From positions 1 through 34,770 of the forward strand of contig JAFTUO010000008.1 in the NCBI GenBank assembly GCA_017466215.1: 34,770 bases of DNA, read 5' to 3'. The notes under the pieces were generated by a model that saw only the letters and a list, made by a program, of their open reading frames with translations, was not told the origin of the DNA and searched no databases. Numbering within the stretch: the stretch's first letter is position 1; each line of letters begins with the position of its first letter. Positions 1 through 13,177 of this stretch are shown here, piece by piece. The translations under genes were made by a program, and so were the position numbers. This stretch comes from Oscillospiraceae bacterium (lineage in GTDB: Bacteria > Bacillota > Clostridia > Oscillospirales > Oscillospiraceae).

Positions 1-1568
1 CTCCTACCGAGGCTCCTACCGAGGCTCCCACTACTGCTCCCACCGAGCCTGAAACCGAGATGACTATGGTTGAGATCGTTGATGCTGCTTATGAGCTGGC
101 TACCGGCACCTCTATGAGCGGTACTCAGACCCTGACCGGCGTTGTCACCAGAGTGAATACCGCTTATGATTCCTACTGGGAAAACGTTACGGTTACCATC
201 CAGATCGAAGGCCGTGAGGACAAGCCCATTATGTGCTTCCGCATGAAGGGCACCGGCGCTGATGTTGTCGCTGTTGGCTACACCATCACCGTTACCGGCA
301 CCATCAAGAACTACAACGGCACCATCGAATTTGATGCCGGCTGCACTCTGGATTCCTACACCGAGGGCACTGCTCCCGAGGATCCCACTGCCGGCATGAC
401 CATGCAGGAGATCGTTGACTACGCTTACACTCTGGAAGCCGGCGGCTTTGTCGACGGCAAGACCCTGACCGGCACGATTACCGCAGTCGACACTGCTTAC
501 GACAGCGAATATGAGAATGTTACCGTTACCATCGTTGTTGAGGGCAAGGAAAACAAGCCCATCAAGTGTTATCGCATGAAGGGCAACGGTGCCAATATGA
601 TCGGTGTTGGCGATACCATCACCGTTACCGGCACACTGATCAACTACAACGGCGTCATCGAATTTGATGCCGGCTGCACTCTGGATGCTTACACCCTGAA
701 TCAGGAAAGCGGTGAGCAGGACCCTAGTGATGTCAACTACGTTTACGGCAGTTACAGCGGTTATAGCAATGTGATCCTGAACTGGGGCGAGCGTGGCGTA
801 GTTGCGACCGGTCTTTCTCCCAATGCAAAGGCTTTCTACACCAGCAACAACACTTCCTACGCTGCTCTGTCTGCTCTGTCCGGCAGCAGCACGGTATCCA
901 GTGTTCCCGACAGCGCGCTGTACAGCGAACTGCAGGAGCTGATGACAGAAAACCACACCAAGCAGACTTCCTACGGTGACACTCGCTATCTGTACTGCTT
1001 CACCGATTGTGAGAATTCTGATAATTCCAGCATTTCCTGCTTCTATACTGGTAACGATCTGGATTCCGCATGGGATTCCGGCACTACCTGGAACCGTGAG
1101 CACTGCTGGCCCAAGAGCAAGACCGCTGCCGGCGATGCCGATAACAGCAGCACCGGCGAGGTCGGTGACATTATGACTCTGCGTCCCACCACCGCCAACG
1201 TCAACTCCAGCCGCGGCAATAAGGCCTACGGCGAGAGCAGCGGTTACTACGATCCCAATGGCAGCCTGGGCAGCAACGGTGCTGACCTGCGCGGCGACGT
1301 GGCCCGTATCGTTCTGTACACCTACGTCCGTTGGGGCAACACCTCCTATATGTGGGGCTCCGAGGGCGTTATGGAGAGCAAGGACGTCCTGCTGGATTGG
1401 ATCGAGGTTGACCCCGTTGACACCTGGGAGCTGGGCCGTAACGACTCCGTTGAGTCCATCACCGGCACCCGTAACGTCTTCGTTGACTACCCCGAGCTGG
1501 CCTTCGTGCTGTTTGGCGAAGAAATTCCCACCACGATGACCACTCCCTCCGGCAGCGCAGCTGCTTGA
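1..1568 (+). CDS. Secreted endonuclease I family nuclease with two OB-fold-like repeats (5' partial)
   Basis: The frame is open to the window edge (first full codon at base 3), so the N-terminus and any signal peptide are missing. Visible order: a PTEAP-type Pro/Thr/Glu linker (3-59), two similar modules of about 100 residues starting at bases 60 and 396 and both ending in DAGCTLD, a spacer, then an endonuclease I (EndA/Vvn/YurI-like) domain at about 960-1550. The nuclease shows NREHCWPKS, whose Glu-His pair is the catalytic and metal motif of the family, then LRPTTANVNSSRGN, which holds the second metal-ligand Asn, and the late RN..VDYPEL block. The usual D.HHL.P segment is changed to DIMTLRP. 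The modules resemble the OB-fold repeats of the B. subtilis extracellular nuclease YhcR (family knowledge, not tested). The linker and repeats suggest export; likely role is sugar-nonspecific cleavage of environmental DNA/RNA. A strong terminator follows. Confidence 0.85.
   Translation, partial: PTEAPTEAPTTAPTEPETEMTMVEIVDAAYELATGTSMSGTQTLTGVVTRVNTAYDSYWENVTVTIQIEGREDKPIMCFRMKGTGADVVAVGYTITVTGTIKNYNGTIEFDAGCTLDSYTEGTAPEDPTAGMTMQEIVDYAYTLEAGGFVDGKTLTGTITAVDTAYDSEYENVTVTIVVEGKENKPIKCYRMKGNGANMIGVGDTITVTGTLINYNGVIEFDAGCTLDAYTLNQESGEQDPSDVNYVYGSYSGYSNVILNWGERGVVATGLSPNAKAFYTSNNTSYAALSALSGSSTVSSVPDSALYSELQELMTENHTKQTSYGDTRYLYCFTDCENSDNSSISCFYTGNDLDSAWDSGTTWNREHCWPKSKTAAGDADNSSTGEVGDIMTLRPTTANVNSSRGNKAYGESSGYYDPNGSLGSNGADLRGDVARIVLYTYVRWGNTSYMWGSEGVMESKDVLLDWIEVDPVDTWELGRNDSVESITGTRNVFVDYPELAFVLFGEEIPTTMTTPSGSAAA
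60..692 (+). repeat. Tandem OB-fold-like domain duplication inside the nuclease gene
   Basis: Two in-frame copies with a period of 336 bp. Copy 1 starts MTMVEIVDAAYEL at 60 and copy 2 MTMQEIVDYAYTL at 396. Both continue LTG..T.V.TAYDS...NVTVTI..EG, then G.TITVTGT..NYNG.IEFDAGCTLD. The similarity is also obvious at DNA level, suggesting a fairly recent duplication or maintenance by recombination. Confidence 0.85.
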
Positions 1569-1584
1569 TCGCAAAACAAAATAG

Positions 1585-1619
1585 AAAATACCCAAGGGTG
1601 AAAACCCTTGGGTATTTTT
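1585..1619. terminator. Intrinsic terminator after the nuclease gene, probably bidirectional
   Basis: Perfect 14-bp stem (1586-1599 with 1604-1617) with a GAAA loop and T-rich flanks on both strands. It ends the nuclease transcript and could also stop the surE operon arriving from the right. Confidence 0.9.
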
Positions 1620-1630
1620 GTAGGTATGAA

Positions 1631-1734
1631 TGTCATTGTGAACCAGTGACCGATGTCACTGGTGTGGCAATCCCCAAAATGGAGAGAGAATTGTCAACTA
1701 TATGACCGAAATGTTTGTAAATTTGGGAATGACA
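1631..1734. repeat. MITE/REP-like intergenic element, copy 1
   Basis: The element runs from TGTCATTG to GAATGACA, giving short terminal inverted repeats (TGTCATT/AATGACA). Inside is a hairpin CCAGTGAC-CGAT-GTCACTGG followed by GTGGCAATCCCC. A second copy at 30095-30217 has the same layout with a different stem sequence. There is no coding capacity. It ends three bases before the stop codon of surE. Confidence 0.75.
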
Positions 1735-1736
1735 TA

Positions 1737-2459
1737 TCAGTTATTCAATTCTTTTAATTGCGCATACACAGCCGGGTCGGCACGGTTAATGGTCATAGGC
1801 ATAATGGAGATGTAGCCGCTCATCACGCAGTCGCTGTCCAGCGTCAGATCGTTTTGATTTTTGTATACGCATTTGCCGTGGGGCATATACATATCGTTTC
1901 CTTCGTGAATAAAATCATCAGAATAGAAATGACCGCCTTGGCGCGTAATGCGAATACCCTTGGCATCGGGGACGACATTGACGTTGTACAGGTCGCAAAG
2001 CTCCATCAGCTTATGCTCCCGGAAGAATTCCAGCACCTGATCCAGCGGCTCGATGGCCCGGTCGTAGAATTCAGGGCCGGTGGAGATGGCCACAGCCTTC
2101 AGTCCTAAGGAAACGGCCTCAAAAACCGCGCCAGCCGTGCCGGAGTACATAATGTCGCGGCCCATATTGAAGCCACGGTTAATGCCGGAGATCACCAGAT
2201 CGAACTGCATCTTCATACCCAGGACGGCATAGCGGATGCAGTCGGCAGGGGAGGAGTCCACGGTGTAGGCAGAAAGACCGGGCTCAAGCTCTACCTTTTT
2301 GACCTCAAAGGGCTTGTGCAGCTCGATGCTTTGGCTCTTGCCGCTTTGTTCGTATTTCGGGACGACAACGGTAACATCTCCCAGCTTCTGACACCATTTG
2401 ACCAGCGGTATCAGCTGGGTTGCACTGACGCTGTCGTCGTTTACTACCAGTATTCTCAT
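1737..2459 (-). CDS. surE: 5'/3'-nucleotidase SurE
   Basis: SurE family phosphatase (240 aa, normal length), which removes phosphate from nucleoside monophosphates and can trim short polyphosphate or oligonucleotide substrates in the cytoplasm. Metal-site motifs are visible: NDDS at residues 7-10 (family NDDG, so Gly10 is Ser here), SGKS at 39-42, DSSPADC at 68-74 and SGINRGFN at 91-98. The ATG at 2459 is preferred over a TTG six bases upstream because the GAGGA ribosome site overlaps that TTG. The start overlaps the stop of the upstream DHH gene as ATGA, so the two are translationally coupled. It is the last gene of a three-gene operon of nucleotide phosphoesterases. Confidence 0.92.
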   Translation of the reverse strand: MRILVVNDDSVSATQLIPLVKWCQKLGDVTVVVPKYEQSGKSQSIELHKPFEVKKVELEPGLSAYTVDSSPADCIRYAVLGMKMQFDLVISGINRGFNMGRDIMYSGTAGAVFEAVSLGLKAVAISTGPEFYDRAIEPLDQVLEFFREHKLMELCDLYNVNVVPDAKGIRITRQGGHFYSDDFIHEGNDMYMPHGKCVYKNQNDLTLDSDCVMSGYISIMPMTINRADPAVYAQLKELNN

Positions 2460-3442
2460 AGCCAATCCTCGTGTGTTTCTTTATATTCCTTAACCAGGGC
2501 GTCGGCCTCCTGCAGAAGTGTCTGCATTTCCTCACGGCTGTATACCGTGGCGCCGCTGGCGCAGGCGTGACCGCCGCCGTTATGCTTTTCTGCGATGGGG
2601 TTGATATGGACAAAACGGGAACGCAGACGGACACGGATAGCGCCGTCGGCATTGCCGGTATCAATAAATACGATCCAGCTGATGCAGCCGCGGATCTTAT
2701 CCATCGTGTTGACGCAGGCGCTGGCCTGCTCAAGGGTCAGGTTAAATTTCTCCTGCATCGCTTTGTCAACATACAGATATGCCACGCCGTTTTCTGTGAT
2801 CTGCATCTGTTCATAGACATATGCCTTGAACTTCAGATATTCGAAGTCTTCCAGGTATAGCTGCGCGAAGAGCATATCGGTGTCGATGCCTGCGTCCAGC
2901 AAGGTTGCAGCGGCGCGCATCGTGTCGCCGTTGACGCTGCCGTACTTGAAGCGGCCGGAGTCTGTAACCATACCGGTATACAGATAGGTGGCAGCGGCGG
3001 AGGTGAGCACCAATTCATCCCGGAAGGTCTGATAGAAATCTACAACGATCTCACAGCAGGAGGAACGTTCCTCTTCTACCCAAACCAAATCACCATAGGT
3101 TTCAATGGGGATGTGGTGGTCGATCTTGATCAGCTCCTTGCAGAACTGGTAATTCTTGTTGGAGATCCGATTTTCGGATGCCGTATCCAGCACGATGCCA
3201 AGAGCGCCGCAGTATTCGCTGGGAATTACCGGCGCATCATCAGGGCCCAGGAATTCCAAATATTCGGCATAATCATCGTCGATCAGATAGACTTCCTTTT
3301 CCGGCCAGGTGGCGCGGATCAATTCCTTCAGACCCTTGGTTGCACCGACGCAGTCGCCATCGTTGCGGATATGCCGGAACAGGAAAATCCGGTCGTATTC
3401 TTTGATTTTCTGAAGAATTTTCTGTTTAATTTCTAAATTCAT
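2456..3442 (-). CDS. DHH/DHHA1 phosphoesterase, NrnA-like (paralogue 1)
   Basis: Bifunctional oligoribonuclease/PAP phosphatase-type protein of 328 aa. The DHH domain has HIRNDGDCVG (24-33), LDTAS (Asp86), KIDHH (106-110) and TGMVTDSGRF (Asp161), which together make the two-Mn site. The DHHA1 domain has GGGHACASG at 289-297. NrnA-type enzymes degrade 2-5 nt nanoRNAs, pAp or pApA (family knowledge); the exact substrate cannot be read here. Compared with the usual H.NPDGDAIGS motif the first block is atypical (Asn for Pro27, Cys for Ala31). The start at 3442 overlaps the stop of the neighbouring paralogue as ATGA, and the 3' end overlaps surE the same way. Confidence 0.9.
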   Translation of the reverse strand: MNLEIKQKILQKIKEYDRIFLFRHIRNDGDCVGATKGLKELIRATWPEKEVYLIDDDYAEYLEFLGPDDAPVIPSEYCGALGIVLDTASENRISNKNYQFCKELIKIDHHIPIETYGDLVWVEEERSSCCEIVVDFYQTFRDELVLTSAAATYLYTGMVTDSGRFKYGSVNGDTMRAAATLLDAGIDTDMLFAQLYLEDFEYLKFKAYVYEQMQITENGVAYLYVDKAMQEKFNLTLEQASACVNTMDKIRGCISWIVFIDTGNADGAIRVRLRSRFVHINPIAEKHNGGGHACASGATVYSREEMQTLLQEADALVKEYKETHEDWL

Positions 3443-4380
3443 TTGTTTTCTCCAATCATAGCGTCCAGGTCGGCCAGCATTGCCATCGCGGTTGCCTTGT
3501 CGGCTACAGTTGCACCGCTGGCCTTGGCGTGGCCACCGCCGCCGTACTTGACGGCAATGGGGTTGATGTTATACTTGCTGGAGCGCAGCTCGCAAAGCAC
3601 GCCGTTGGGCGTCTCGGTGAAATTGACCCAGATATCCACGCCCTTGGTGTCGGACATCGTGCCCACCATACCCCGGGATACGGTGAAGGTATCCACGTTC
3701 AGCTCCTGCAGCTCCTCCAGGGTCGTGTAGATATAGGCGACGCTGTTTGCCGTAAAATTGACCTTGAGGATGAACTTTGCCTTCAGCAGCTTGGAGGAAA
3801 AGTCATCTGCGTACAGATTGCGGTACAGCTCGTTGGTATCGAATTCCTGCTCCATCAGTTTGGATGCCAGGCGGAAGGTGCGGGCATTGGTGCTGTCATA
3901 GCGGAAGCGGCCGGAATCCGTGATCATACCGGTAAACAAGGCCTTGGAAGCCAGAAGATTCAATTTAAGGCCTGATTGAACAGCAAACTCCGTAACAAGA
4001 CCGCAGCAGCTTTCAAAACTGGTGTCAACCACTTCGATATCCGCGATCTTTTCACAGAAAATGTGGTGATCGAAGCGGATGGTTTTCGCGGCAAGCTGAT
4101 ACCGGTCGTCATTTATCATCGACTTAGAGCCGCAGTCCAGAATAATGGCCAGAGCGCCGTCGTAGGCGCTGTCGGGAATCTCGTCCATCTGCGCGCCTTC
4201 GATAAATCCGTAATAACCGGGGGCGTCGCCCACCATATATACCTGCTTGTGAGGAAAGTTTTCCAAAAGGATCTGCTGCATACCAACCTGGCTGCCAATG
4301 GCGTCGCCATCCGGACGGCCGTGACGATGCAGAATTATCCGCTCATAACTTTGAATCGTTTGTAGAATTTCGTGAAACAT
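3439..4380 (-). CDS. DHH/DHHA1 phosphoesterase, NrnA-like (paralogue 2)
   Basis: First gene of the operon (313 aa) and paralogous to the next gene, but with more canonical motifs: HGRPDGDAIGS (20-30), LDCGS (81-85), RFDHH (102-106), TGMITDSGRFRY (about 150-161) and GGGGHAKASG (280-289). It is predicted to be a cytoplasmic Mn-dependent exonuclease/phosphatase acting on nanoRNA, pAp or linear cyclic-dinucleotide products. The frame extends upstream to 4452, but ATG 4380 has a GAGG site at the right distance and begins where the family does; the upstream part lies in the promoter region. Two adjacent coupled paralogues suggest divided substrate ranges or a heteromer (inference). Confidence 0.9.
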   Translation of the reverse strand: MFHEILQTIQSYERIILHRHGRPDGDAIGSQVGMQQILLENFPHKQVYMVGDAPGYYGFIEGAQMDEIPDSAYDGALAIILDCGSKSMINDDRYQLAAKTIRFDHHIFCEKIADIEVVDTSFESCCGLVTEFAVQSGLKLNLLASKALFTGMITDSGRFRYDSTNARTFRLASKLMEQEFDTNELYRNLYADDFSSKLLKAKFILKVNFTANSVAYIYTTLEELQELNVDTFTVSRGMVGTMSDTKGVDIWVNFTETPNGVLCELRSSKYNINPIAVKYGGGGHAKASGATVADKATAMAMLADLDAMIGENK

Positions 4381-4392
4381 TGTAGACCTCGC

Positions 4393-4421
4393 TTGTAAAC
4401 TGCATAATAATGTCGTATAAT
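4393..4421 (+). promoter_or_regulatory. Promoter of the 5'-3' exonuclease gene
   Basis: TTGTAA (4393-4398), a 17-bp spacer, then TATAAT (4416-4421). It is face to face with the DHH operon promoter, so the two probably compete or are co-regulated. Confidence 0.65.
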
Positions 4422-4423
4422 AT

Positions 4424-4452
4424 ATCATATCATACATTCCGTCTTTTCGCAA
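4424..4452 (-). promoter_or_regulatory. Promoter of the DHH-DHH-surE operon
   Basis: On the minus strand TTGCGA (4447-4452), a 17-bp spacer, then TATGAT (4424-4429). A second possible pair is TTTACA/TATGAT shifted five bases. It overlaps the promoter of the divergent exonuclease gene. Confidence 0.6.
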
Positions 4453-4481
4453 TGTAAAGATGACAGAAAAAAGGTGATCGG

Positions 4482-5330
4482 TTGGAAAATATACATATTT
4501 TGCTGATTGACGGCAGCAATCTGCTGTTCCAGATGTTTTACGGTATGCCTGCGCGGATCATAGGCCGGCAGGGAAGACCGATCCAGGGAACGCTGGGCTT
4601 CATCGGTGCGTTGCTTAAAGTCGTCCGCAAATTGGAGCCTACCCATCTGGCGGTGCTGTTCGACGGAGAGACGGAGAATCCCCGCGGCAAGCTGGACGAA
4701 AACTATAAGGCAAACCGGGAAGATTACAGCGCCCTGCCGGAGGCTGAGACTCCGTTCTCCCAGCTGCCGGATATTTACGCTGCGCTGGATCATCTGGGGA
4801 TATGTCATCGGGAGACCTGGGAATGTGAAACGGACGATTGGATGGCATCCTATGCTCTGGGTTTGGGAAAGACCCACAAAATGACCCTGATGTCCCAGGA
4901 CAGTGATTATTTCCAGCTCATTACGGACAAGGTGTCGGTTTTGCGGTATCGCGGCGATAATTCTGTCCTTTGCGATCCGGCCTATATTCGGGAAAAGCTG
5001 GAGATCGAGCCGGAGCAGTATGGCGATTATAAATGCCTTACCGGGGATGCGTCGGACAACATTCGGGGCGCGGATAAGGTTGGACCGAAAACGGCTGCAC
5101 AGCTTATGCGGCAGTTTGGCACTTTGCAGGCCCTTCTTAACAATGTGGATGCGGTAACAAAACCGTCTGTTCGCGAATCTGTCCGCAAGAGTGCCGACCG
5201 GCTGCTGCTAAATCAAAAGCTGATCCGACTGGAAGGGAAATATGCCGTGCCGTTTTCTTTGGAGCAGATGCTCTATACATACGATGGACAAACATCTACC
5301 CAGGTGCTGACGGCCATTGGTGTAAAATAA
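4482..5330 (+). CDS. Stand-alone 5'-3' exonuclease (PolA N-terminal/FEN-type)
   Basis: The 282-aa protein matches the 5' nuclease domain of DNA polymerase I without a polymerase part. Metal-binding acids are all present: Asp10 (LLIDGSNLL), Asp61 (LFDG), Glu116/Asp118/Asp119 (ECETDD), Asp140/Asp142 (SQDSDY), Asp189/Asp192 (TGDASDN). A helix-hairpin-helix VGPKTAAQL follows at 200-208. The start is TTG at 4482 with AAGGTGAT upstream; no in-frame ATG is available nearby. Such proteins remove RNA primers or flaps and degrade DNA from 5' ends. It is divergent from two DHH nucleases. Confidence 0.9.
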   Translation: MENIHILLIDGSNLLFQMFYGMPARIIGRQGRPIQGTLGFIGALLKVVRKLEPTHLAVLFDGETENPRGKLDENYKANREDYSALPEAETPFSQLPDIYAALDHLGICHRETWECETDDWMASYALGLGKTHKMTLMSQDSDYFQLITDKVSVLRYRGDNSVLCDPAYIREKLEIEPEQYGDYKCLTGDASDNIRGADKVGPKTAAQLMRQFGTLQALLNNVDAVTKPSVRESVRKSADRLLLNQKLIRLEGKYAVPFSLEQMLYTYDGQTSTQVLTAIGVK

Positions 5331-5362
5331 AAGGAGGTCGAATGCGACCTCCTTTTCCTTTT
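5329..5362. terminator. Bidirectional terminator between exonuclease gene and deoC
   Basis: Perfect 12-bp stem (5329-5340 with 5345-5356), loop AATG, T-rich on the plus side. It sits between two convergent genes and its end touches the deoC stop codon. Confidence 0.85.
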
Positions 5363-6047
5363 AGTATTTTCCGTCGTTGACTGCAACCTGGCCGGCTTCC
5401 AGAGCCTTGGCTACCTTAACGATCCGGGAAGTGCCCAGGCGGGATGCGCCCAGCTGGATGAACTTCTCGGCATCCTCCAGGCTGGAGATGCCGCCTGCGG
5501 CCTTGATCTTCACGTTAGGACCGACGTGCTTGGCAAACAGGGCAACGTCGTCAAAGGTCGCGCCTGCGGTGGAGAAGCCGGTAGAGGTCTTGATGTAATC
5601 TGCGCCGGCTTCAGTAACGATCTGGCACATCTTGATCTTTTCCTCATCGGTGAGCAGACAGGTCTCGATGATGACCTTCAGCAGCTTGCCGCAGCAATGA
5701 GCCTTGATCTGGCGGATCTCTTCGGTCAGCTCGTCATACTTGCCGTCCTTCAGCCAGCCGATATTGATGACCATATCCACCTCGTCTGCGCCGTTTGTTA
5801 CAGCATCGTGGGCCATAAAGCACTTGGAAGCGGTGGTGGCGTAGCCGTTGGGGAAGCCGATGACCGTGCAGATGGCCAGCTTGTCGCCTACATACTCCTT
5901 GGCCTGCTTCACAAAGCTGGCAGGAATGCAGACGGATGCGGTGTGGTACTTCATACCGTCATCGCAGATGGCCTTGATGTCCGCCCAGGTGGCGGCCTGA
6001 GAGAGCAGCGTGTGGTCGCATTTTGCAAGAATTTCAGAAAGTTCCAT
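5361..6047 (-). CDS. deoC: Deoxyribose-phosphate aldolase
   Basis: Class I aldolase that splits 2-deoxyribose-5-phosphate into glyceraldehyde-3-phosphate and acetaldehyde, the last step of deoxynucleoside catabolism. At 228 aa it is normal length. The Schiff-base lysine is Lys153 in YIKTSTGF; Asp91 (DEVDMVIN region) and Lys182 in KIKAAGGI are the other active-site residues. AAGGAG precedes the ATG. It is third in an operon after the nucleotidase/kinase fusion and the 5'-nucleotidase, with a 15-bp gap. It is separated from deoD-deoB rather than in one deo operon, but only about 4 kb away. Confidence 0.96.
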
Positions 6048-6062: not shown

Positions 6063-7592
6063 TTATTGTTCAAACCCGCCGTCTCTGGCGTACTGCGCCA
6101 AAAGATCCCGGGCAAATATATCTGCGTCGTAGCGGTCAATTTCTGTCAGTTTGTTTGGTCCATAAATGGAAGAATAGCTGTCCACAACAACATAGTAAGT
6201 CCCGTCGGGGTCTATGTTATTTCTTAGCTCCGCACCGTAAGTGCCGTAGCTGATGAAATATCTGTCGTTGGAGGTCTCAAAGAAGCGGGACTGCAGATCC
6301 CGGCCCTTGATGGAGCAAAGCACCAGCTGATTGTCAAAGGGGAACAGGGAATAAAGCATCTTGTAGGTTACCTCGCCGGCGGCAAGATATCCCGGGTCTC
6401 TTACGGAGATAAAGCCGCCGCCCAGAGCAATGTCGTAACGATCGCCCCAGATCGCCATACCCGCCTCATAGTAGAGGTTGGCTACCGTTTGCTGCATATA
6501 TCTGCCGTTGCGATTATAGGCGTTATTGCCCAAAACTTCATTGCCGATGCTGACCTGGTCTGCGTATTTATCAAGGAGCTGCTCAACGATGGGATGGTCT
6601 TCTTCCCGGGTGTAGGACTTGGTGGGAACAAGCTCGGCAGATTGTACCTTGCTGCTTCCGTTGGCGATGTTGATCGCGACTTCAACCCGGCTGATGCCCT
6701 CGTTATCGCCGCCACCCTGGAGATGGTAAACACCATAGCTGTCGGTCAGTATGTATTTTTGATGGGTATGCCCCTCAAAAACCAAGTCTACATAGCCGCC
6801 GGACAGGGAAGTGTCATAGTAAGAGGCGAGCTGCTTATCGCTGACAGAGGTCGTCGAGGATTTGCTGGAGCCCAAGCCGTCGTGGAGCAGATACACGATA
6901 AAATCTGCGCCGCCTGCGCGTAATTTGTCGGATTCCGCTTTAACCAGCTTGGTCAGCTCTGTGCCGGTCTTAAAGTAGACATCCTCAACCTTATCCGCAG
7001 CGATGGAAGAGTAGCAATCGCCGATAGCACCGATAATGCCGATCTGGATCGCGCCAAGATCCACCACCGTGGAGCTTTCGCAGTAGCTAACCTGCTGATC
7101 AGTCTTCCGGTCATAGATGTTGATGGCAAGGAAGGGGAACTGGGCAGATTTGTCATTTTCTTCGATGGGGGATTCGCCCCAGTCGTATTCGTGATTGCCC
7201 ATTGCCATAGCGGCGAAGCCCATTTCGTTCATCCAATCGGTCATAATAAGACCTTCAGTAAGATTGGATTCCGAGCTGCCCTGCCACATATCGCCGGTGC
7301 TTAGGAAGATGGTGTGTTCTTCAGCTTTCCGGGCGTTTTCCAGATAGGTGCTTAGCTCATCCAAACCGGGATGGGTGTCTGCGTCAGCCAGCTTGCCGTG
7401 AATGTCGTTGAGGGTATAAAAATCTACCACGACCAGAAGAAACTGGCTGCACCGGTCGCAAAAACCGTCGTCGCCTGCATCAATATGACCGTCCGCACAG
7501 CTGGGTGCAGTCGGGGCTGGATTTGCTGCTGCACAGCCTGTCAGTAGCAGGCAAACCGCCAAAAGAATGCTAATTTTCTTTAATAAGTTCAA
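6063..7592 (-). CDS. 5'-nucleotidase/metallophosphatase lipoprotein (UshA/YfkN-like)
   Basis: Surface-anchored 509-aa protein. An N-terminal lipoprotein signal ends in LLLTGC (Cys20). A short Cys-rich segment C..GHID.GDDGFCDRC (32-48) follows, of a kind seen in extracellular clostridial proteins. The calcineurin-like phosphoesterase domain has Asp63/His65 (LNDIHG), Asp101 (STGDMWQGS), Asn133-His134 (GNHEYDWG), a later LLHDGL and GHTHQ. The C-terminal half fits the 5_nucleotid_C substrate domain. Likely reaction: extracellular nucleotides to nucleosides plus phosphate. The start is TTG at 7592, with AGGAG about ten bases upstream and no ATG before the signal peptide. It is the middle gene of the fusion-nucleotidase-deoC operon. 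Confidence 0.88.
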   Translation of the reverse strand: MNLLKKISILLAVCLLLTGCAAANPAPTAPSCADGHIDAGDDGFCDRCSQFLLVVVDFYTLNDIHGKLADADTHPGLDELSTYLENARKAEEHTIFLSTGDMWQGSSESNLTEGLIMTDWMNEMGFAAMAMGNHEYDWGESPIEENDKSAQFPFLAINIYDRKTDQQVSYCESSTVVDLGAIQIGIIGAIGDCYSSIAADKVEDVYFKTGTELTKLVKAESDKLRAGGADFIVYLLHDGLGSSKSSTTSVSDKQLASYYDTSLSGGYVDLVFEGHTHQKYILTDSYGVYHLQGGGDNEGISRVEVAINIANGSSKVQSAELVPTKSYTREEDHPIVEQLLDKYADQVSIGNEVLGNNAYNRNGRYMQQTVANLYYEAGMAIWGDRYDIALGGGFISVRDPGYLAAGEVTYKMLYSLFPFDNQLVLCSIKGRDLQSRFFETSNDRYFISYGTYGAELRNNIDPDGTYYVVVDSYSSIYGPNKLTEIDRYDADIFARDLLAQYARDGGFEQ

Positions 7593-7608
7593 TTTAATCT
7601 ACTCCTGC

Positions 7609-8712
7609 CTATTTCAGGATCTGCTGCAGCTGCTCCAGAGCCTCGTCATAGCTGTCAAAGCTGATGACGTAATCACAAAGCGCGGCATTCTTCTCCTCGT
7701 ACTCAATGGCGGTCAAACGGTTGACCTTATCCTCAATGGAGGAATTTTTCTTCAGAATACTGGTCATCAGGGCTTTTTTATTGCGCTTGATATAGATGGC
7801 GGTAACATTCTTAAAATGGGTTTTCAGGGAAATCGCACCGCAGATATCCATTGTGGTCATTACCCGCTTGCCGCTTGCCAGGATCTTCTGGATGTCAGCC
7901 TTCTTGGAGCCATAGGCGTGGCCGGCATACATCGTAGACTGGAACATCTCACCGCTGGCGCACATATTCCGGAAATCTGTCTTGGATACATAGGTGTACC
8001 ACTGATTTTCCTCCAGCGCGGTGGGGTCTTTGGTGGTGTAGCTGGGAAGCTGTTCGAAATCCTGATTTTTCGACAGGAAGCGGGTGGCGATTTTGGACTT
8101 GCCGCTGCTGGACGGACCGACCAGCACGACGATATCCGGATCTTCCTGGGATTCCTGCTTGACCGAGTAGCTTTCCGCAATGACCTCAACGATTTTTAAG
8201 AATTCGTCATAGTGATTCACTGCCAGCATACCGGTGGCCTCCTGATTCCAGGGACGGCGCATCAGAATGGGATATTTGGCGTTAGAGGTCAGAATGTTGT
8301 GCAAAGCGTCATCAAACAGAATGTCGGTATGGATATTCTCTTTCCGGGCACCCATATAGATGTGATTTGCAGGGATCTCCGGGAACTCCTCCATAATCCG
8401 CTGGGCGCGGATGCCCATAAACTGGGGAGGTACAGCGGTGCAGATGAAAACATCCGTCATCTGGGTGAGCTTGCGGACGAATTCCTTGGCGCCTTCGTAG
8501 ACCGGCTGGGTGCGATAAAATTCCGGATCGCTGAAATAGGGATAGATGCTGTCTGCCCGGGTACCCAGCTTGCCCCAGGCTTCTTTTTCATAGATGGTCA
8601 TCGGGGGGTCAAATTTGTACTTTTCATTGGCCAGACGGATGGCATACGAGGTGCATTCCATCAGAAGATCGTCTACATCCAATGCGGTAGAAAGCCTGTA
8701 TTTCCTGCTCAT
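7609..8712 (-). CDS. Fusion: HAD-type 5'(3')-deoxyribonucleotidase plus guanylate-kinase-like domain
   Basis: Two recognisable halves in 367 aa. Residues 1-180 look like the NT5C/YqfW HAD family: motif I DVDD (Asp12, Asp14), motif II FICTAVPP (Thr92), Lys124 and motif III DILFDDA (Asp134/135). Residues 190-367 look like guanylate kinase: P-loop GPSSSGKS (199-206), SYTTKDP (224-230, against the usual S.TTR.PR), GEMFQ...AYGS (254-269, against GEF.E...YGT). Substitutions at the GMP-binding Arg and Glu positions suggest a changed nucleotide substrate or a regulatory role. A good AGGAGG precedes the ATG. It is the first gene of the operon with the 5'-nucleotidase (16-bp gap) and deoC, so a nucleotide-related role is likely. 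Whether the halves oppose or cooperate is unknown. Confidence 0.8.
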   Translation of the reverse strand: MSRKYRLSTALDVDDLLMECTSYAIRLANEKYKFDPPMTIYEKEAWGKLGTRADSIYPYFSDPEFYRTQPVYEGAKEFVRKLTQMTDVFICTAVPPQFMGIRAQRIMEEFPEIPANHIYMGARKENIHTDILFDDALHNILTSNAKYPILMRRPWNQEATGMLAVNHYDEFLKIVEVIAESYSVKQESQEDPDIVVLVGPSSSGKSKIATRFLSKNQDFEQLPSYTTKDPTALEENQWYTYVSKTDFRNMCASGEMFQSTMYAGHAYGSKKADIQKILASGKRVMTTMDICGAISLKTHFKNVTAIYIKRNKKALMTSILKKNSSIEDKVNRLTAIEYEEKNAALCDYVISFDSYDEALEQLQQILK

Positions 8713-8773
8713 AAGCTTACCTCCTTACTTAAAGATTGATGCACGTGCTGTGCGCGGAAACTCAGGTGAAAAA

Positions 8774-8812: not shown

Positions 8813-8821
8813 ACACAATTT

Positions 8822-8849
8822 ATTGTACAGCATATTGGGAAAAAATCAA
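8822..8849 (-). promoter_or_regulatory. Promoter of the fusion-nucleotidase-deoC operon
   Basis: On the minus strand TTGATT (8844-8849), a 16-bp spacer, then TACAAT (8822-8827), between the RNase gene terminator and the leader hairpin. Confidence 0.55.
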
Positions 8850-8877
8850 GTTTTTTGTGATATTTTCCAGCAAAATA

Positions 8878-8910
8878 TAAATCAGCGGAGCAAAAATACT
8901 CCGCTGATTC
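8878..8910 (-). terminator. Terminator of the barnase-like gene
   Basis: Perfect 10-bp stem ATCAGCGGAG/CTCCGCTGAT (8881-8890 with 8899-8908) with a T-rich tail on the minus strand, just after the stop of the RNase gene. Confidence 0.8.
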
Positions 8911-8918
8911 TTTGCTTG

Positions 8919-9842
8919 TTAATTGCCAAGCAGGGAATCGTAGCTCACATGTACGTAAGGTGTCGGACTGCACTGGGTTTTGCTGTCGAAAACGCCGCCG
9001 CCGGTAATATTGCCAAATGTTTCACCCCAACCACCGTAATAGTTCAGATATTCGGTGAAATCGTTGTAGTGATTGTGGGTATAGAACACGAAGACCTCGT
9101 GGGCTTCATATGTTCCGTTGCCGTTGATGTCCTTCTTCGTGTAGACCAGCCGGGCAGCGCCACGGACGATGGACTTGCCGTTGTTATAGAGCTTGGGCGA
9201 ATAGCCGGGTGTAGCAGTGCCCGTGGTGCCGATGTCCATTTCATAATAGCGGAAGCCTGCGCCGTTTCCAGGAAGCTCCGGCTCATAGGGGTACTTCTCG
9301 GGGTTATTCTTATACCAGGAGTGATTCAGACGCAGATATTGCCCCCATTTATTGCCGGCGGGCTTTGCGCTTTTCTTGGTTGTGTAGTTTGCGGGAAGAT
9401 TTTCATCACCGCCGAAGGCGTACATATACGCTGCAACCTCTTCCAGGGTGATATAGCCGCCGCCTTTATAGATGCGCATCACTTCGTTGCCCTTGCTGTC
9501 GGTTACGACGTAGGTGTTTCCGCCGTCTTCATAATGCCGGTCTGTATTGTGAATATAAAGATCATCAGAGGTGGGCTGGTAGTCAGCTCGTGTAAACTGC
9601 TGCTGCGGTACTTCCAAAGAGCCGGAGAGGAAGCCGTGTTCAGATCTGTACAATGCATCCTGCAAGCTTGTGGCGGGGGTATAGTTGCTGTAAAATTCCT
9701 CTGCACTCATACCGATGTAAGGATCGGACAGCGGGACGGTGGCGCTGGTGGGAGGAGTTGTCGGTGTCGCGACCGGCACTTGCGGCGCGCAGGCGCTGAG
9801 CAGAAGCAGCAAAAGAAGAATAACGGATATTATTCGTTTCAT
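8919..9842 (-). CDS. Barnase-family ribonuclease lipoprotein
   Basis: 307 aa. A lipoprotein signal ends in LLLLSAC (Cys18), followed by a Thr/Pro-rich tether, a middle region and a C-terminal domain like barnase (microbial RNase N1 family). Alignment by eye: LPANYTTKKSA against LPDNYITKSEA (Lys156 = barnase Lys27), ELPG then RYYEMDIG against WREADI (Glu201 = Glu73), RGAARLVY against RNSDRILY (Arg227/Arg231 = Arg83/Arg87), FVFYTHNHYNDFT against IYKTTDHYQTFT (His258/Tyr259 = His102/Tyr103). All catalytic residues are present, so it should cleave RNA, preferring G, outside the cell. ATG 9842 has GGAG upstream; a TTG at 9857 is rejected because it lies at that site. No barstar-like gene is adjacent. 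Confidence 0.82.
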   Translation of the reverse strand: MKRIISVILLLLLLLSACAPQVPVATPTTPPTSATVPLSDPYIGMSAEEFYSNYTPATSLQDALYRSEHGFLSGSLEVPQQQFTRADYQPTSDDLYIHNTDRHYEDGGNTYVVTDSKGNEVMRIYKGGGYITLEEVAAYMYAFGGDENLPANYTTKKSAKPAGNKWGQYLRLNHSWYKNNPEKYPYEPELPGNGAGFRYYEMDIGTTGTATPGYSPKLYNNGKSIVRGAARLVYTKKDINGNGTYEAHEVFVFYTHNHYNDFTEYLNYYGGWGETFGNITGGGVFDSKTQCSPTPYVHVSYDSLLGN

Positions 9843-9887
9843 AATTGATTTCTCCAAAGTAATTATAATAAGTACATTGTATTGCGT

Positions 9888-9916
9888 AGTATACCATAAT
9901 TCTGCAAATAACGCAA
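9888..9916 (-). promoter_or_regulatory. Promoter of the barnase-like gene
   Basis: On the minus strand TTGCGT (9911-9916), 17-bp spacer, TATACT (9888-9893). It is back to back with the deoD promoter. Confidence 0.6.
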
Positions 9917-9940
9917 CGGATTCTTCCTTTCGTTTTATTA

Positions 9941-9969
9941 TTGATTTTCTTCACGAATAACTGTATAAT
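9941..9969 (+). promoter_or_regulatory. Promoter of the deoD-deoB-cdd-udp operon
   Basis: TTGATT (9941-9946), 17-bp spacer, perfect TATAAT (9964-9969), about 30 bases before the deoD start. No clear operator palindrome was seen. Confidence 0.7.
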
Positions 9970-10001
9970 AAATAAAAACTATAACAAGGAGAGATGAATT
10001 T

Positions 10002-10754
10002 ATGAATAAGTTTCCTGCAACTCCCCACATTAATGTTTTGGATGAGATCGGCTTCGGCAAAACCGTGCTGATGCCCGGCGATCCTCTGCGGGCAAAGATG
10101 ATCGCTGAGACGTTCCTGGAGGATCGTGTACTGGTAAACAATGTCCGCGGTGTCAACGGCTACACCGGTTATTACAAGGGTGTAAAGGTTTCTGTTATGG
10201 CATCCGGTATGGGCATGCCTGCCATTGGCATTTATTCTCACGAGCTGTTTACGATGTTTGGCGTTGAGAATATTATCCGCGTCGGCTCTGCCGGCTCTAT
10301 CCAGGAGCATATTAAGCTGTATGATCTGGTGATCGGCCAGGGCGCCTGCACCGATTCCAACTGGGCCTCCCAGTTCCATCTGCCCGGCACTTTTGCGCCT
10401 ATCGCTTCCTGGGAGCTGGTTACTGAGGCTGTCAAGGCGGCTGAGGCCAACGGCGCAACGTATCACGTTGGCAATGTCAACTCCTCTGACGTGTTCTACG
10501 GAGATCACGTTGGCGTGCCCGAGGGCTTGGACAGCGTCTATGGTCTGAAGAAGATGGGCGTTATGGCGCTGGAAATGGAAGCGGCGGCTCTGTATATGAA
10601 CGCTGCCCGCTATGGCAAGCGCGGCCTGTGCATCTGCACCATCTCCGATCACGTGCTGACCGGCGAGCTGACCAGCGCGCAAGAGCGTCAGAATTCCTTC
10701 ACCACGATGATGAAGGTGGCGCTGGATGTGGCTGTAGCAATGGAGAACAAGTAA
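10002..10754 (+). CDS. deoD: Purine nucleoside phosphorylase, DeoD type
   Basis: Hexameric-type phosphorylase splitting purine (deoxy)ribonucleosides with phosphate into base and (deoxy)ribose-1-phosphate in the cytoplasm. The 250-aa length is slightly above the usual ~235. Visible motifs: VLMPGDPLRAK for phosphate binding, RVGSAGSIQ, the substrate loop ALEMEAAALY, and ISDH with the catalytic Asp. AAGGAG precedes the ATG. It is first in a four-gene salvage operon; its sugar-phosphate product is the substrate of the next gene, deoB. Confidence 0.96.
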   Translation: MNKFPATPHINVLDEIGFGKTVLMPGDPLRAKMIAETFLEDRVLVNNVRGVNGYTGYYKGVKVSVMASGMGMPAIGIYSHELFTMFGVENIIRVGSAGSIQEHIKLYDLVIGQGACTDSNWASQFHLPGTFAPIASWELVTEAVKAAEANGATYHVGNVNSSDVFYGDHVGVPEGLDSVYGLKKMGVMALEMEAAALYMNAARYGKRGLCICTISDHVLTGELTSAQERQNSFTTMMKVALDVAVAMENK

Positions 10755-10778
10755 AACCTACCTTTATGAGGTGATTGA

Positions 10779-11945
10779 ATGAAGCGTATCTTTTTGATCG
10801 TGCTGGATTCCTGCGGTATCGGCGCTATGCCCGACGCTGCCAGCTTTGGCGATGTGGGCGTGAACACGTTGGCAGCTTGCGCTACATCTGACAAGCTGCA
10901 CATCCCCAATATGATTGCAGCCGGTCTTGGTAATATTGACGGCGTTTCCTGCCTGCCGGAGACTGCCGCGCCTGCCGGCGCTTATGCCCGGCTGACGGAG
11001 CGCTCCAATGGCAAGGACACCACCATTGGCCATTGGGAGATCGCCGGCATCGTATCTGAAAATCCGCTGCCTACCTATCCCGACGGTTTTCCTGAGGAGG
11101 TGCTTGCGCCTTTCCGCGCGGCCACCGGGCGGGGTGTTCTGGCCAATGCGCCCTGGAGCGGTACGGCGGTTTTGGATGCCTACGGCGAGGAGCATATGCG
11201 CACCGGCGATTTGATCGTCTATACCTCGGCGGACTCTGTGTTTCAGATCGCTGCCCACGAGCAGATCGTTCCGCTGGATAAGCTGTATGAATACTGCCAT
11301 ATTGCCCGGGATCTGCTGAAAGGCAAGCACGGCGTGGGCCGCGTGATCGCCCGTCCGTTTGTAGGAACAGGGAAGGGGGCATTTCAGCGCACCTCCAACC
11401 GGCACGACTACTCCCTTGAGCCGCCGGCTGAGACGATGCTGGATGCCATCAAGGAAGCCGGTCTGGACGCCATTGCTGTGGGCAAGATCCACGATATCTT
11501 CGCCGGCCGCGGCGATACGGAGTATGTGTATAATAAGTCCAATGCCGACGGTATGAGTCACACCGCCGACTATGCCAAGAAGGATTTCCACGGCCTGTGC
11601 TTCGTGAATTTGGTGGATTTTGATATGGTCTACGGACACCGCCGGGATATCGACGGCTATGCAAATGCCCTGTCTCAGTTTGATGCCTGGCTGGGTGAAT
11701 TTGTGAAGACCCTGGGTGATGACGATCTGGTGATGATCACCGCGGACCACGGCTGTGATCCTGCCTACACGGCAACTACCGACCATACCCGTGAGTATGT
11801 GCCGCTGCTGGTGCTGGGCAAGGGCGTAAAACCCGTTAATTTGGGAACGAGAAAGAGCTTTGCGGATATTGCCGCAACGGTAACAGATCTGCTGGGCGTG
11901 GATTTTGAAACGCCCGGAACAAGCTTTGCAAAGGAGATCCTGTGA
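10779..11945 (+). CDS. deoB: Phosphopentomutase
   Basis: Mn-dependent alkaline-phosphatase-superfamily mutase converting (deoxy)ribose-1-phosphate to the 5-phosphate; the deoxy product feeds deoC. The 388-aa length is typical. VLDSCGIGAMPDA at the N-terminus carries the first metal Asp, GKDTTIGHWEIAG the phospho-accepting Thr, and ITADHGCDP and TDHTREYVP the C-terminal metal ligands. GAGGTGATTGA provides the ribosome site. Its stop overlaps the cdd start by one base (TGATG). Confidence 0.97.
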   Translation: MKRIFLIVLDSCGIGAMPDAASFGDVGVNTLAACATSDKLHIPNMIAAGLGNIDGVSCLPETAAPAGAYARLTERSNGKDTTIGHWEIAGIVSENPLPTYPDGFPEEVLAPFRAATGRGVLANAPWSGTAVLDAYGEEHMRTGDLIVYTSADSVFQIAAHEQIVPLDKLYEYCHIARDLLKGKHGVGRVIARPFVGTGKGAFQRTSNRHDYSLEPPAETMLDAIKEAGLDAIAVGKIHDIFAGRGDTEYVYNKSNADGMSHTADYAKKDFHGLCFVNLVDFDMVYGHRRDIDGYANALSQFDAWLGEFVKTLGDDDLVMITADHGCDPAYTATTDHTREYVPLLVLGKGVKPVNLGTRKSFADIAATVTDLLGVDFETPGTSFAKEIL

Positions 11946-12352
11946 TGACTGCTGAAAATCTGATTGCGCTTGCCAAGGAAGCAATGCAAAAGGCCTATGC
12001 GCCGTATTCCGGCTACAAGGTGGGTGCTGCGCTGCTGTGCGCCGACGGCACGGTGTATCAGGGCTGCAACATTGAAAATGCCGCTTTTGGCCCTACCAAC
12101 TGCGCTGAGCGCACCGCCATTTTCAAGGCAGTCTATGACGGCCATCGGGACTTCACCGCCATCGCCGTTTGTGGCGGCAAGGATGGCGTGATCACCGGTT
12201 CGTTCCCACCCTGCGGCGTCTGCCGTCAGGTGATGCGGGAGTTCTGTGAGGATGATTTTATCATCTATATGATTGATGCTGATGTCGGCTATAAGACCTG
12301 CACGCTGGCAGATCTGCTGCCTTACAGCTTTTCACCCAAGAATATTGGCTAA
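11945..12352 (+). CDS. cdd: Cytidine deaminase
   Basis: Small homotetrameric-type cytidine/deoxycytidine deaminase (135 aa) producing uridine or deoxyuridine. The zinc site is intact: CNIENAAFGPTNCAERTA with the Cys-Ala-Glu catalytic unit, and PPCGVCRQVM with the two further Cys ligands. The ATG at 11945 is preferred over GTG 11942 because AAGGAG at 11931-11936 is then at eight-base spacing. It sits between deoB and the uridine phosphorylase gene, matching the route cytidine to uridine to uracil. Confidence 0.96.
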   Translation: MTAENLIALAKEAMQKAYAPYSGYKVGAALLCADGTVYQGCNIENAAFGPTNCAERTAIFKAVYDGHRDFTAIAVCGGKDGVITGSFPPCGVCRQVMREFCEDDFIIYMIDADVGYKTCTLADLLPYSFSPKNIG

Positions 12353-12364
12353 GGGGGAAATAGT

Positions 12365-13132
12365 ATGCAAGCAACGGAAAAACAGTTCCATATTCAATGC
12401 GTGGAAGGCGATGTGGGCAAATATGTGATACTGCCCGGCGATCCGGGTCGGTGCGAAGCCATTGCCCGCCATTTTGACAACCCGGTACATATCGGTATGA
12501 ACCGGGAGTATAATATCTGGACCGGTACGCTGCTGGGCGAGAAGGTGTCTGTCTGCTCTACCGGCATCGGCGGCCCGTCCGCGTCCATTGCGATGGAAGA
12601 GCTGGTCAATATCGGCGCGGATACGTTCATCCGGGTCGGCACTTGCGGCGGCATCCATCTGGACGTCAAGCCCGGTGATGTGGTTGTTGCCACCGGCGCG
12701 GTGCGCTATGAGCATACATCCTTGGAATATGCACCCATCGAGTATCCGGCAGTTGCAGACTTTGATATTACGGCTGCGCTGAAGGCTTCCGGTGAGGAAC
12801 TGGGCTTCGATACCCATACCGGCGTTGTGCAGTGTAAGGATTCGTTCTACGGCCAGCATTCGCCGGAGAAATCGCCGGTTTATTATGACCTGCTTAACAA
12901 ATGGGAGAGCTGGAAGCGTCTGGGCGTCAAGGCCAGCGAAATGGAATCTGCGGCCCTGTTTGTCGTGGCAAATGCGCTGGGCGTGCGCTGCGGATCTTGC
13001 TTCCACGTGATCTGGAATCAGGAGCGGGAAAAGGCAGGCCTGTTTATGCCGATGACGGAGGACACCTCCGGCGCGATCAAGGTTGCCATCGAGGCGCTGA
13101 AGAAGATCATCACGGCAGACAAGGCAAAATAA
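12365..13132 (+). CDS. udp: Uridine phosphorylase
   Basis: NP-I family phosphorylase (255 aa) related to E. coli Udp. [13 protein letters not shown] binds phosphate, [16 protein letters not shown] and RVGTCGGI are family blocks, [12 protein letters not shown] gives the substrate-specific loop, and SEMESAALF the ribose-binding Met-Glu. It yields uracil and ribose-1-phosphate, which deoB can process. A purine-rich AAGGGGGAAA site precedes the ATG by few bases. It is the last gene of the deoD operon, followed by a strong terminator. Confidence 0.92.
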
Positions 13133-13143
13133 AAGATAATAGT

Positions 13144-13177
13144 AAAGCCACCACTCAAACAGAGTGGTGGCTTTTTG
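13144..13177 (+). terminator. Terminator of the deoD-deoB-cdd-udp operon
   Basis: GC-rich stem AGCCACCACTC/GAGTGGTGGCT with a 5-nt loop followed by TTTTT. Confidence 0.92.

Follow-up and report, generated by a model that had tools for sequence, protein, structure and literature searches.

A probable nucleic-acid utilisation locus, divided between two contigs, in an Oscillospiraceae draft genome

Introduction

Loci for feeding on nucleic acids are already known from marine wall-less bacteria and, partly, from mycoplasmas (accessible sections of PMC10470597, PMC8289736 and PMC3585158). In Hujiaoplasma nucleasis zrk29, DNA and RNA promote growth and many genes of one such locus are upregulated on them (excerpt of PMC10470597); among these precedents, growth or expression data appear in the accessible parts of PMC10470597 and PMC8397711. 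For the Mycoplasma P80-SNase-ABC operon MAG_5030 to MAG_5070, import of nucleic-acid precursors has been proposed (excerpt of PMC3585158). Our search of one open-access library for work on nuclease, extracellular-DNA or ABC-transporter loci of Oscillospiraceae/Oscillospirales returned a single, unrelated paper.

The locus presented here resembles each of these systems in part. Going by the description, it and the H. nucleasis locus each combine ABC transporters with NrnA and a ribonuclease that acts outside the cell, but the available sections of that report name one NrnA and other partner genes (PMC10470597). Like the DNA-degradation loci of Ca. Izemoplasmatales, it co-locates several extracellular nucleases, a thermonuclease, phosphohydrolases and ABC transporters, and it includes a large nucleic-acid-binding nuclease; those loci, from a different lineage, are described with a phosphate ABC transporter and a lamin-tail protein (excerpts of PMC8289736 and PMC8397711), whereas the present locus has OB repeats with Endonuclease I, paired NrnA-like proteins, SurE, a barnase-type ribonuclease, a fusion protein termed here NT5C-GK, and deo genes. 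Compared by gene content, the Mycoplasma operon likewise combines a binding lipoprotein, an SNase lipoprotein, an ATPase and two sugar-type permeases in one polycistron, but the accessible part of its report describes no endonuclease I, NrnA pair, SurE or deo genes (PMC3585158). Our locus is most likely a variant of the known nucleic-acid-degradation loci, new in its make-up.

Gene content of the window

The window, i.e. the whole stretch of DNA analysed (34,770 nucleotides), is contig C91 of the source draft genome (G000), starting at contig base 1. Its positions 3-13132 hold 13 consecutive ORFs, all assigned by Pfam and NCBIfam signatures to nucleic-acid, nucleotide or deoxyribose metabolism (Table 1). 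The first-pass annotation had described such a run, and every ORF was recovered, at or close to the position stated, with the family signature given to it; the deoD-deoB-cdd-udp-deoC set that it had also recognised is borne out by the curated NCBIfam cut-offs, which all five proteins exceed. The one gene it had left unnamed encodes the fusion of NT5C and Guanylate_kin domains. As it had also noted, no nucleoside transporter was recognised in the window (ORFs inspected by eye; Pfam scan of the left half).

Table 1. Coordinates and signatures of the 13 consecutive genes at the left end of the window
Feature	Position	Strand	Signatures
Giant, probably exported nuclease, C-terminal part	3..1568	+	PF04231, 75.4 bits; no other Pfam match
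SurE-type 5'/3'-nucleotidase	1737..2465	-	PF01975, 147.7 bits; TIGR00087, 143.8 bits (cut-off 135.1)
NrnA-like oligoribonuclease/pAp phosphatase, paralogue 1 (DHH1)	2456..3442	-	PF01368, PF02272
NrnA-like oligoribonuclease/pAp phosphatase, paralogue 2 (DHH2)	3439..4452	-	PF01368, PF02272
Stand-alone 5'-3' exonuclease, PolI-type 5'-3' domain	4482..5330	+	PF02739, PF01367
DeoC, deoxyribose-phosphate aldolase	5361..6047	-	TIGR00126, 239.9 bits, above cut-off
5'-nucleotidase lipoprotein, UshA-like	6063..7592	-	PF00149 (Metallophos), PF02872 (5_nucleotid_C); lipobox LTGC by eye
NT5C 5'-deoxynucleotidase-family domain fused to guanylate-kinase-like domain (NT5C-GK)	7609..8712	-	PF06941, 57 bits; PF00625, 78.9 bits
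Barnase-type ribonuclease lipoprotein	8919..9857	-	PF00545, 25.2 bits (cut-off 24; weak); lipobox by eye
DeoD, purine-nucleoside phosphorylase	10002..10754	+	TIGR00107, 268.8 bits, above cut-off
DeoB, phosphopentomutase	10779..11945	+	NF003766, 520.9 bits, above cut-off
Cdd, cytidine deaminase	11942..12352	+	TIGR01354, 148.6 bits, above cut-off
Udp, uridine phosphorylase	12365..13132	+	TIGR01718, 306.1 bits, above cut-off

The SurE and DHH1 genes overlap by 10 bases and DHH1 and DHH2 by 4; the spacers on either side of the 5'-nucleotidase gene measure 15 (to deoC) and 16 bases (to NT5C-GK), and the successive distances from deoD to udp are 24, -4 and 12 bases.

Both DHH proteins carry the DHH and DHHA1 domains and the DxD, DHH and GGGH motifs of NrnA. 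DHH1 aligns to the solved NrnA 5j21 with E 6e-62, keeping the D-x-D, DHH, DSGRF and GGGH stretches, and DHH2 with E 3e-56, also with the motifs kept; the two are 39% identical. As they score 230.5 and 227.7 bits, below the NF053633 equivalog cut-off of 350 bits, we call them NrnA-like. The 5'-3' exonuclease gene lies near DHH2 in several relatives. The NT5C-GK fusion is conserved across 25 aligned homologues; no conserved home was found for it, as no neighbour is universal in 80 loci of relatives, and only 8 of these have the RDD-ABC-SBP-SNase module described below. Of the 16 loci from other families, 4 have a barnase-type homologue (53-57%) placed after the large protein and before SurE; Pfam names nothing in the L224 homologue, the one of the four that was scanned, and the window gene has no solved-structure match at E<=0.01.

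The giant nuclease gene and the second contig

Base 1 of the window is a contig end inside the giant nuclease gene, whose frame enters from that end; the N-terminus is thus cut off and the export signal lies outside the window. The remaining part comprises two OB-like repeats, picked out by eye and from their resemblance to relatives, together with the Endonuclease I catalytic domain. It is the sole Endonuclease I match found in the G000 genome, and its reading frame runs off the start of C91. A second contig, C57, carries another copy of NT5C-GK, a PHP gene, RDD, an ABC ATPase, two permeases, an SBP lipoprotein, an SNase lipoprotein and a giant frame of 1,794 aa from its ATG, also open at the contig start, which is probably the N-terminal part of the window endonuclease. 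The ends of C57 and C91 share no exact overlap of 10-150 bases. In the sister genome G118, this entire arrangement is on one contig, facing SurE-NrnA-NrnA; the intact homologue of the giant protein there has 1,505 aa, with OB and Endonuclease I matches and no lamin-tail match at E<=0.01. Genome G157 is split in the same way as G000, locus L238 ending inside the giant gene and another contig beginning inside it. We infer that C57 and C91 are neighbours in the source genome.

The first-pass annotation had advised looking upstream of base 1 for further exported nucleases or a transporter. Both were found, namely the SNase lipoprotein and the ABC importer, on C57 in G000 and contiguous in G118. 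The locus holds several genes for predicted extracellular nucleases, encoding the SNase lipoprotein, the giant OB/Endonuclease I protein and the barnase-type lipoprotein (export signals by eye). In G000 the nuclease genes are spread over two contigs; in G118 the SNase and Endonuclease I proteins share one. Ten proteins occupying the slot between SNase and SurE in six loci were scanned, and a recognised nuclease domain was found in one (L227), the others having OB domains, other domains or none, and the L230 protein resembling an FAD protein; the large-nuclease role is thus borne out only at loci in which Endonuclease I is present.

The ABC importer

The genes for the ATPase, two permeases, SBP and SNase are contiguous on one strand (C57, 5400-11265), with the ATPase first and the SNase last, an order unlike that of the Mycoplasma operon. 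In G118 and further genomes, too, the transporter is contiguous with the locus. None of the listed NCBIfam equivalog cut-offs is reached by the SBP, its nearest families being UgpB and sugar binders, so the cargo named below is a predicted one. A Bmp-type nucleoside binding protein was considered as the missing importer and rejected, as G000 has no match; there is also none in G117 and G157, and two each in G118 and G111.

Recurrence and apparent transfer of the module

The module was found in two further families of Oscillospirales, i.e. in three altogether. In these other families SNase follows SBP in all 16 loci. Nine of them have SurE-NrnA further downstream, encoded on the opposite strand, and 6 of the remaining 7 are cut by a contig end. 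Seven loci of the same genus are also cut near SurE.

Within the genus, the NrnA query matches 31 of 111 genomes, with none at E<=1e-30 in the other 80 drafts. SBP is present in 28 of the 31 NrnA carriers versus 3 of the 80 other genomes (G137, with a 42% SBP match, was dropped; G006, with only a DHH1-like gene, and G111, with a contig-end fragment, were kept as carriers), the Fisher test on this table ignoring relatedness among genomes. Independent pairs were counted for ordered pairs of five traits over the supported branches of a 53-genome tree of deo/cdd proteins, where fewer than six pairs cannot reach 0.05. Among the trait pairs listed, NrnA and SBP changed the same way in a mean of 2.4 of 3 pairs and opposite ways in 0.0, Endonuclease I and SBP in 1.7 and 0.4 of 5, both too few for significance, and Endonuclease I and 5'-nucleotidase in 1.2 and 0.7, again from under six pairs. 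With so few independent gains or losses, much of the NrnA-SBP association may reflect shared descent.

The transporter tree, from a quick search and with G476 on a very long branch, mixes the families: 8 label changes are needed where the minimum possible is 2. Such mixing suggests horizontal transfer, similar loci apparently having been exchanged between bacterial families. A phage or plasmid origin is unsupported, as a pattern scan of viral_contigs yielded no relative of NT5C-GK or SBP and a plasmid search no SBP match at E<=1e-30. Named records with the locus or its NT5C-GK gene are often labelled ruminant gut.

The deo genes and the extent of the locus

DeoD, DeoB, Cdd, Udp and DeoC are present as in known deo/cdd/udp operons, but here deoC is split off beside the 5'-nucleotidase gene and the operon adjoins the nuclease locus. 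We examined 51 deoB loci, from among 100 same-genus genomes having deoB, over up to ~9 kb per side (less at contig ends). The order deoC-deoD-deoB-cdd is kept in 45 of the 51, unlike in the window, and none has NrnA, SurE, 5'-nucleotidase, barnase or Endonuclease I within the stretch read; the closest deo/NrnA pairing is in G141 (L129), where the NrnA triad lies ~11 kb from deo. The deo genes are usually a separate operon, which joined the nuclease locus in the window subclade, where they stand at it in several different gene orders. They also occur at the locus in G251 and G436 of another family, apparently having reached it there independently.

Taken with the finding that most carriers have the 5'-nucleotidase and barnase genes on contigs apart from SurE-NrnA, this result for the deoB loci would fit ordinary salvage operons that have come to lie side by side by accident, the genome being small, and that share no function. 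We consider this unlikely, since the segment with the endonuclease, SurE and NrnA makes up one half of a recurrent locus, at which deo genes stand in several orders in the window subclade and also in G251 and G436. Parts of the run recur together in relatives, which argues against chance. The proposal that all 13 genes form one feeding system consequently stands in part: the endonuclease, SurE and the two NrnA-like genes belong to a recurrent locus with the SNase lipoprotein and the ABC importer, but the block of 13 genes as a whole is no ancient unit, and by the refuting condition of the first-pass annotation its deo part is scattered in these relatives.

Proposed function

Based on these observations, we suggest that the locus probably serves nucleic-acid utilisation, the window holding one half and C57 the other. 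From the gene content we infer export, the enzyme activities and induction by nucleic acids. Outside the cell, the giant OB-repeat endonuclease, the SNase lipoprotein and the barnase-type RNase would cut DNA and RNA, and the 5'-nucleotidase lipoprotein would remove phosphate from the freed nucleotides. The binding lipoprotein and the ABC importer, of the carbohydrate/UgpB type, would import the products. Inside, the nucleases and phosphohydrolases encoded at the locus (two NrnA-like proteins, the RNase RNM-like PHP, the 5'-3' exonuclease and SurE) would convert short oligonucleotides and nucleotides to nucleosides, which DeoD, Udp, Cdd, DeoB and DeoC would break down to bases and sugar-phosphate fragments.

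Exported nucleases serve in competition, biofilm or phage-DNA destruction in other bacteria, and those of this locus could mainly destroy foreign or matrix DNA, with feeding secondary. This is very improbable, as an importer and intracellular degraders of oligonucleotides and nucleotides would be needless for a purely destructive role.

As to the cargo of the importer in the proposed feeding locus, it is quite conceivable that oligonucleotides are fully degraded outside and that nucleosides or nucleobases are carried, in which case the role of the NrnA pair, SurE and NT5C-GK would be limited to recycling the cell's own nanoRNA and nucleotides. The 5'-nucleotidase lipoprotein in the window agrees with this, and in the G000 draft, where no Bmp-type binding protein was found, the importer could fill that gap; such transport was inferred by Wasmund et al. 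and proposed for the mycoplasma and Izemoplasma loci, according to the accessible parts of these reports. On the other hand, a 5'-nucleotidase turned up in no more than 15 of the 31 NrnA carriers, and a housekeeping recycler absent (E<=1e-30) from 80 of 111 same-genus drafts, and occurring almost only alongside SBP, would be odd. In a bolder and rather uncertain reading, intact short oligonucleotides (nanoDNA/nanoRNA) released by the exported nucleases would be taken up, the paired NrnA-like proteins, the RNase RNM-like PHP and SurE would be their dedicated intracellular degraders, and this unit would spread horizontally among gut-bacterial families.

Elsewhere, NrnA is regarded chiefly as an enzyme that recycles nanoRNA and pAp. 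Its occurrence in this genus almost only with the nuclease/ABC locus gives clear and testable grounds for thinking that an ABC transporter may bring short oligonucleotides into cells. The locus recurs across three families of a single order and has apparently been passed between them. With it, gut bacteria may digest DNA and RNA extracellularly and feed on the imported fragments.

Gene content of the window and the probable other half of its locus

Mechanical ORF calling followed by Pfam and NCBIfam identification upheld the first-pass annotation of thirteen consecutive genes of nucleic-acid and nucleoside metabolism (see table). They include three tight units: SurE-DHH1-DHH2 (the DHH genes being NrnA-like), DeoC-5'-nucleotidase-NT5C-GK and DeoD-DeoB-Cdd-Udp. 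SurE, DeoC, DeoD, DeoB, Cdd and Udp passed curated NCBIfam cut-offs. Both DHH proteins match NrnA along their length but fall under the equivalog cut-off; aligned to the solved NrnA 5j21, they keep the catalytic motifs. The barnase-type gene has a weak Pfam match (25.2 bits, cut-off 24). Export of the locus proteins was judged by visual inspection of signal and lipobox sequences. After udp, on the opposite strand, lies a DcuR/DcuS (MalK-like) two-component pair with NCBIfam scores below the cut-offs.

The gene previously left unnamed encodes an NT5C-family domain fused to a guanylate-kinase-like domain (NT5C-GK). In 25 homologues D12, D14, T92, K124 and D134, presumably HAD motif residues, are invariant, as are G199, S201, G204 and K205 of the P-loop. 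Guanylate kinases contact the GMP phosphate through two arginines; both positions are replaced in NT5C-GK, so its kinase substrate may be other than GMP. The fusion is scattered among Clostridia and Anaeroplasma/Acholeplasmatales records.

The advice to search upstream of base 1 for further nucleases or a transporter proved fruitful. The genome (G000) is a 1.56 Mb draft, 83% complete, in 93 contigs; the window is contig C91, and its base 1 is a contig end that truncates the first frame, leaving the C-terminal part of a larger protein. Contig C57 carries a second NT5C-GK copy, a PHP gene, RDD, ABC genes, a binding lipoprotein (SBP), SNase and then a giant frame of 1,794 residues with OB-like repeats, open at the contig start; in all of G000, an Endonuclease I domain was found only in the window. 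A search for identical end sequences of 10-150 bases shared by C57 and C91 gave none. Genome G157 has its contig break within the same gene, where C7 ends and C9 begins, and G118 carries the giant nuclease gene whole (1,505 aa) on a single contig, in the order NT5C-GK, PHP, RDD, ABC, SBP, SNase, nuclease, SurE-DHH1-DHH2, exonuclease, DeoD, DeoC, 5'-nucleotidase. C57 and C91 are therefore likely to be adjacent, which would place the SNase and the ABC transporter genes next to the window.

Positions and gene orders of features of the locus
Feature	Genome, contig or locus	Position or order
13 ORFs	window	3-13132
NT5C-GK	window	7609-8712
NT5C-GK, second copy	G000:C57	12909-14042
DcuR/DcuS-like pair	window	13212-15501
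dGTPase-like HD protein	L117	8158-9375
Slot protein	L116	12033-13883
Slot protein	L130	8721-10055
Deo genes at locus, window subclade	G117	DeoD-5'NT-barnase
Deo genes at locus, window subclade	G118	DeoD-DeoC-5'NT
Deo genes at locus, window subclade	G157	DeoD-5'NT
Deo genes at locus, window subclade	G111	DeoD-5'NT-NT5C-GK

The importer module and its variable slot

Pfam recognised PHP, RDD, ABC_tran, two BPD_transp_1, SBP_bac_8 and SNase in the module, and OB and Endonuclease_1 in the giant G118 protein. The NCBIfam models closest to the PHP protein are RNase RNM and 3',5'-nucleoside bisphosphate phosphatase (150 bits for each, against cut-offs of 375 and 400), and the one closest to the SBP is UgpB (55 bits, cut-off 411); the nearest solved structure to the SBP is the sugar-binding protein 7c0v.

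In the genus, the order on the SurE side is RDD - ABC ATPase - permease - permease - binding lipoprotein - SNase lipoprotein - large OB-repeat protein. Of the 29 NrnA loci fetched, 13 show this run: 12 include SNase within the stretch, and the thirteenth, L124, breaks off in the binding protein. Eleven of these have the run facing SurE from the other strand; the two exceptions, L123 (G104) and L124 (G029), have it after SurE on the same strand, separated from it by NT5C-GK. In seven other loci (L113, L115, L119, L125, L127, L128, L129) the contig ends at most 2.4 kb from SurE, and in the remaining nine the run is absent next to SurE. In several NrnA loci, within and outside the genus, a dGTPase-like HD protein (NCBIfam scores below cut-offs) directly follows DHH2.

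Ten proteins occupying the slot between SNase and SurE in six other loci (L116, L130, L227, L230, L233, L224) were scanned with Pfam. A recognised nuclease domain (Endonuclea_NS_2) occurred in one, from L227, and OB in two; four had a weak Pfam family or none, and one (L230) resembles an FAD-dependent protein. Given these mixed domains, the slot content varies, and the constant nuclease of the locus is SNase. The L227 protein also has a dockerin-like domain; other fillers are OB-only or lack a clear Pfam match, and unrecognised nucleases may be among the slot proteins. L236 (G008:C52) has two SBP genes upstream of SNase, with an OB-protein-like stretch between them.

Distribution within and beyond the genus

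Among 111 genomes of the genus, DeoB occurs in 100 and NrnA query matches in 31. The SBP was found in 28 of the 31 NrnA carriers versus 3 of the 80 others (G137, whose match is 42%, is left out), the 5'-nucleotidase lipoprotein in 15 versus 1, the barnase-type gene in 13 versus 1 and Endonuclease I in 20 versus 7. This co-occurrence is weakened by the kinship of the genomes and by incomplete drafts, mostly draft bins, in which absences may be gaps. On a 53-genome tree from deo/cdd proteins, built as a kinship control, the NrnA label requires 8 changes, 3 of them forced by supported branches. Independent pairs, too few for a test in each comparison, averaged 2.4 changing the same way and 0.0 the opposite way for NrnA and SBP (3 pairs). 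Endonuclease I was less consistent, with 1.7 and 0.4 against SBP (5 pairs), 1.2 and 0.7 against 5'-nucleotidase, and 1.7 and 0.7 against barnase.

Of 394 sampled genomes of the order, 26 gave SBP matches, including G000 and G006: 15 matches outside the genus, all in families f19 and f20, are 60-74% identical, that of G476 (f19) is 44% identical, and the eight remaining genomes reach only 34-36%. A phylum sample of 398 genomes gave G000 and one 35% match. In all 16 loci fetched outside the genus (the 15 and G476), SNase follows SBP (33% identical in G476), and in nine SurE-NrnA follows on the opposite strand; of the other seven, six stop at a contig end and L231 runs about 6 kb further without SurE-NrnA. 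In four loci (L224, L225, L228, L229) the large protein and SurE flank a homologue of the window's barnase-type gene (53-57%), Pfam naming no family for that of L224, and 5'-nucleotidase with NT5C-GK lies upstream of RDD in two loci (L233, L234). In G251 the locus is followed by DeoC and TK; in G436 it comes after DeoC-DeoB-Cdd.

A combined ABC/SBP tree of 34 loci, made by a quick method, mixes the genus, f19 and f20 (8 label changes, least possible 2), supported branches forcing 5 changes each for f19 and f20 and 3 for the genus. In one example, G277 and G331 of f19 cluster (support 100) with G104, a member of the window's genus, and NT5C-GK directly precedes RDD in all three. The simplest reading of this mixture would be horizontal transfer of the locus between families, the alternative being old duplications with losses.

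Relation to the deo genes and proposed function

The thirteen-gene block did not hold up as a conserved unit. In 51 of the 100 deoB loci of the genus, which were fetched, no nuclease or NrnA-locus gene was found near deoB within the stretches read; 45 show the order deoC-deoD-deoB-cdd, 19 have thymidine kinase nearby, and up to 14 have clusters resembling, by eye, Bmp-type nucleoside ABC transporters. The window has DeoC-5'NT-NT5C-GK-barnase, then DeoD-DeoB-Cdd-Udp, its relatives carry other combinations (see table), and deoB-cdd lie away from the locus in G117 and G118 (L201, L202). That the same functions have come together in differing orders would argue for selection for a joint role.

We propose that exported nucleases would cut DNA and RNA, that the SBP/ABC system would import the products, and that NrnA-like enzymes, PHP, exonuclease and SurE would complete the breakdown of oligonucleotides and nucleotides within the cell; Deo/Udp/Cdd enzymes would then direct bases to salvage and deoxyribose or ribose phosphate to glycolysis. 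The NrnA family degrades 2-5-mers. Oligonucleotides are favoured over nucleosides as the candidate cargo by two observations: the importer locus codes for two intracellular NrnA-family enzymes, and in the genus NrnA matches are nearly confined to genomes that have the importer. As a search for Bmp genes in G000, G117 and G157 found none, the importer of the locus could be the principal route of entry in these genomes.

Published reports describe DNA-degradation loci of Izemoplasmatales that combine extracellular nucleases, phosphohydrolases and ABC transporters (PMC8289736), with cluster genes up on DNA and growth promoted (PMC8397711); a Hujiaoplasma nucleasis locus that holds an extracellular ribonuclease, NrnA and ABC transporters and of which many genes are induced on DNA and RNA (PMC10470597); and a mycoplasma polycistron of binding lipoprotein, SNase and sugar-type ABC genes (PMC3585158). 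By these descriptions, the present locus differs in lineage and in its Endonuclease I with OB repeats, paired NrnA-like genes with SurE, barnase-type gene, NT5C-GK and deo genes. Given these precedents, it would be a variant of known nucleic-acid-degradation loci with ABC transporters, and what appears to be new is the lineage and the gene set.
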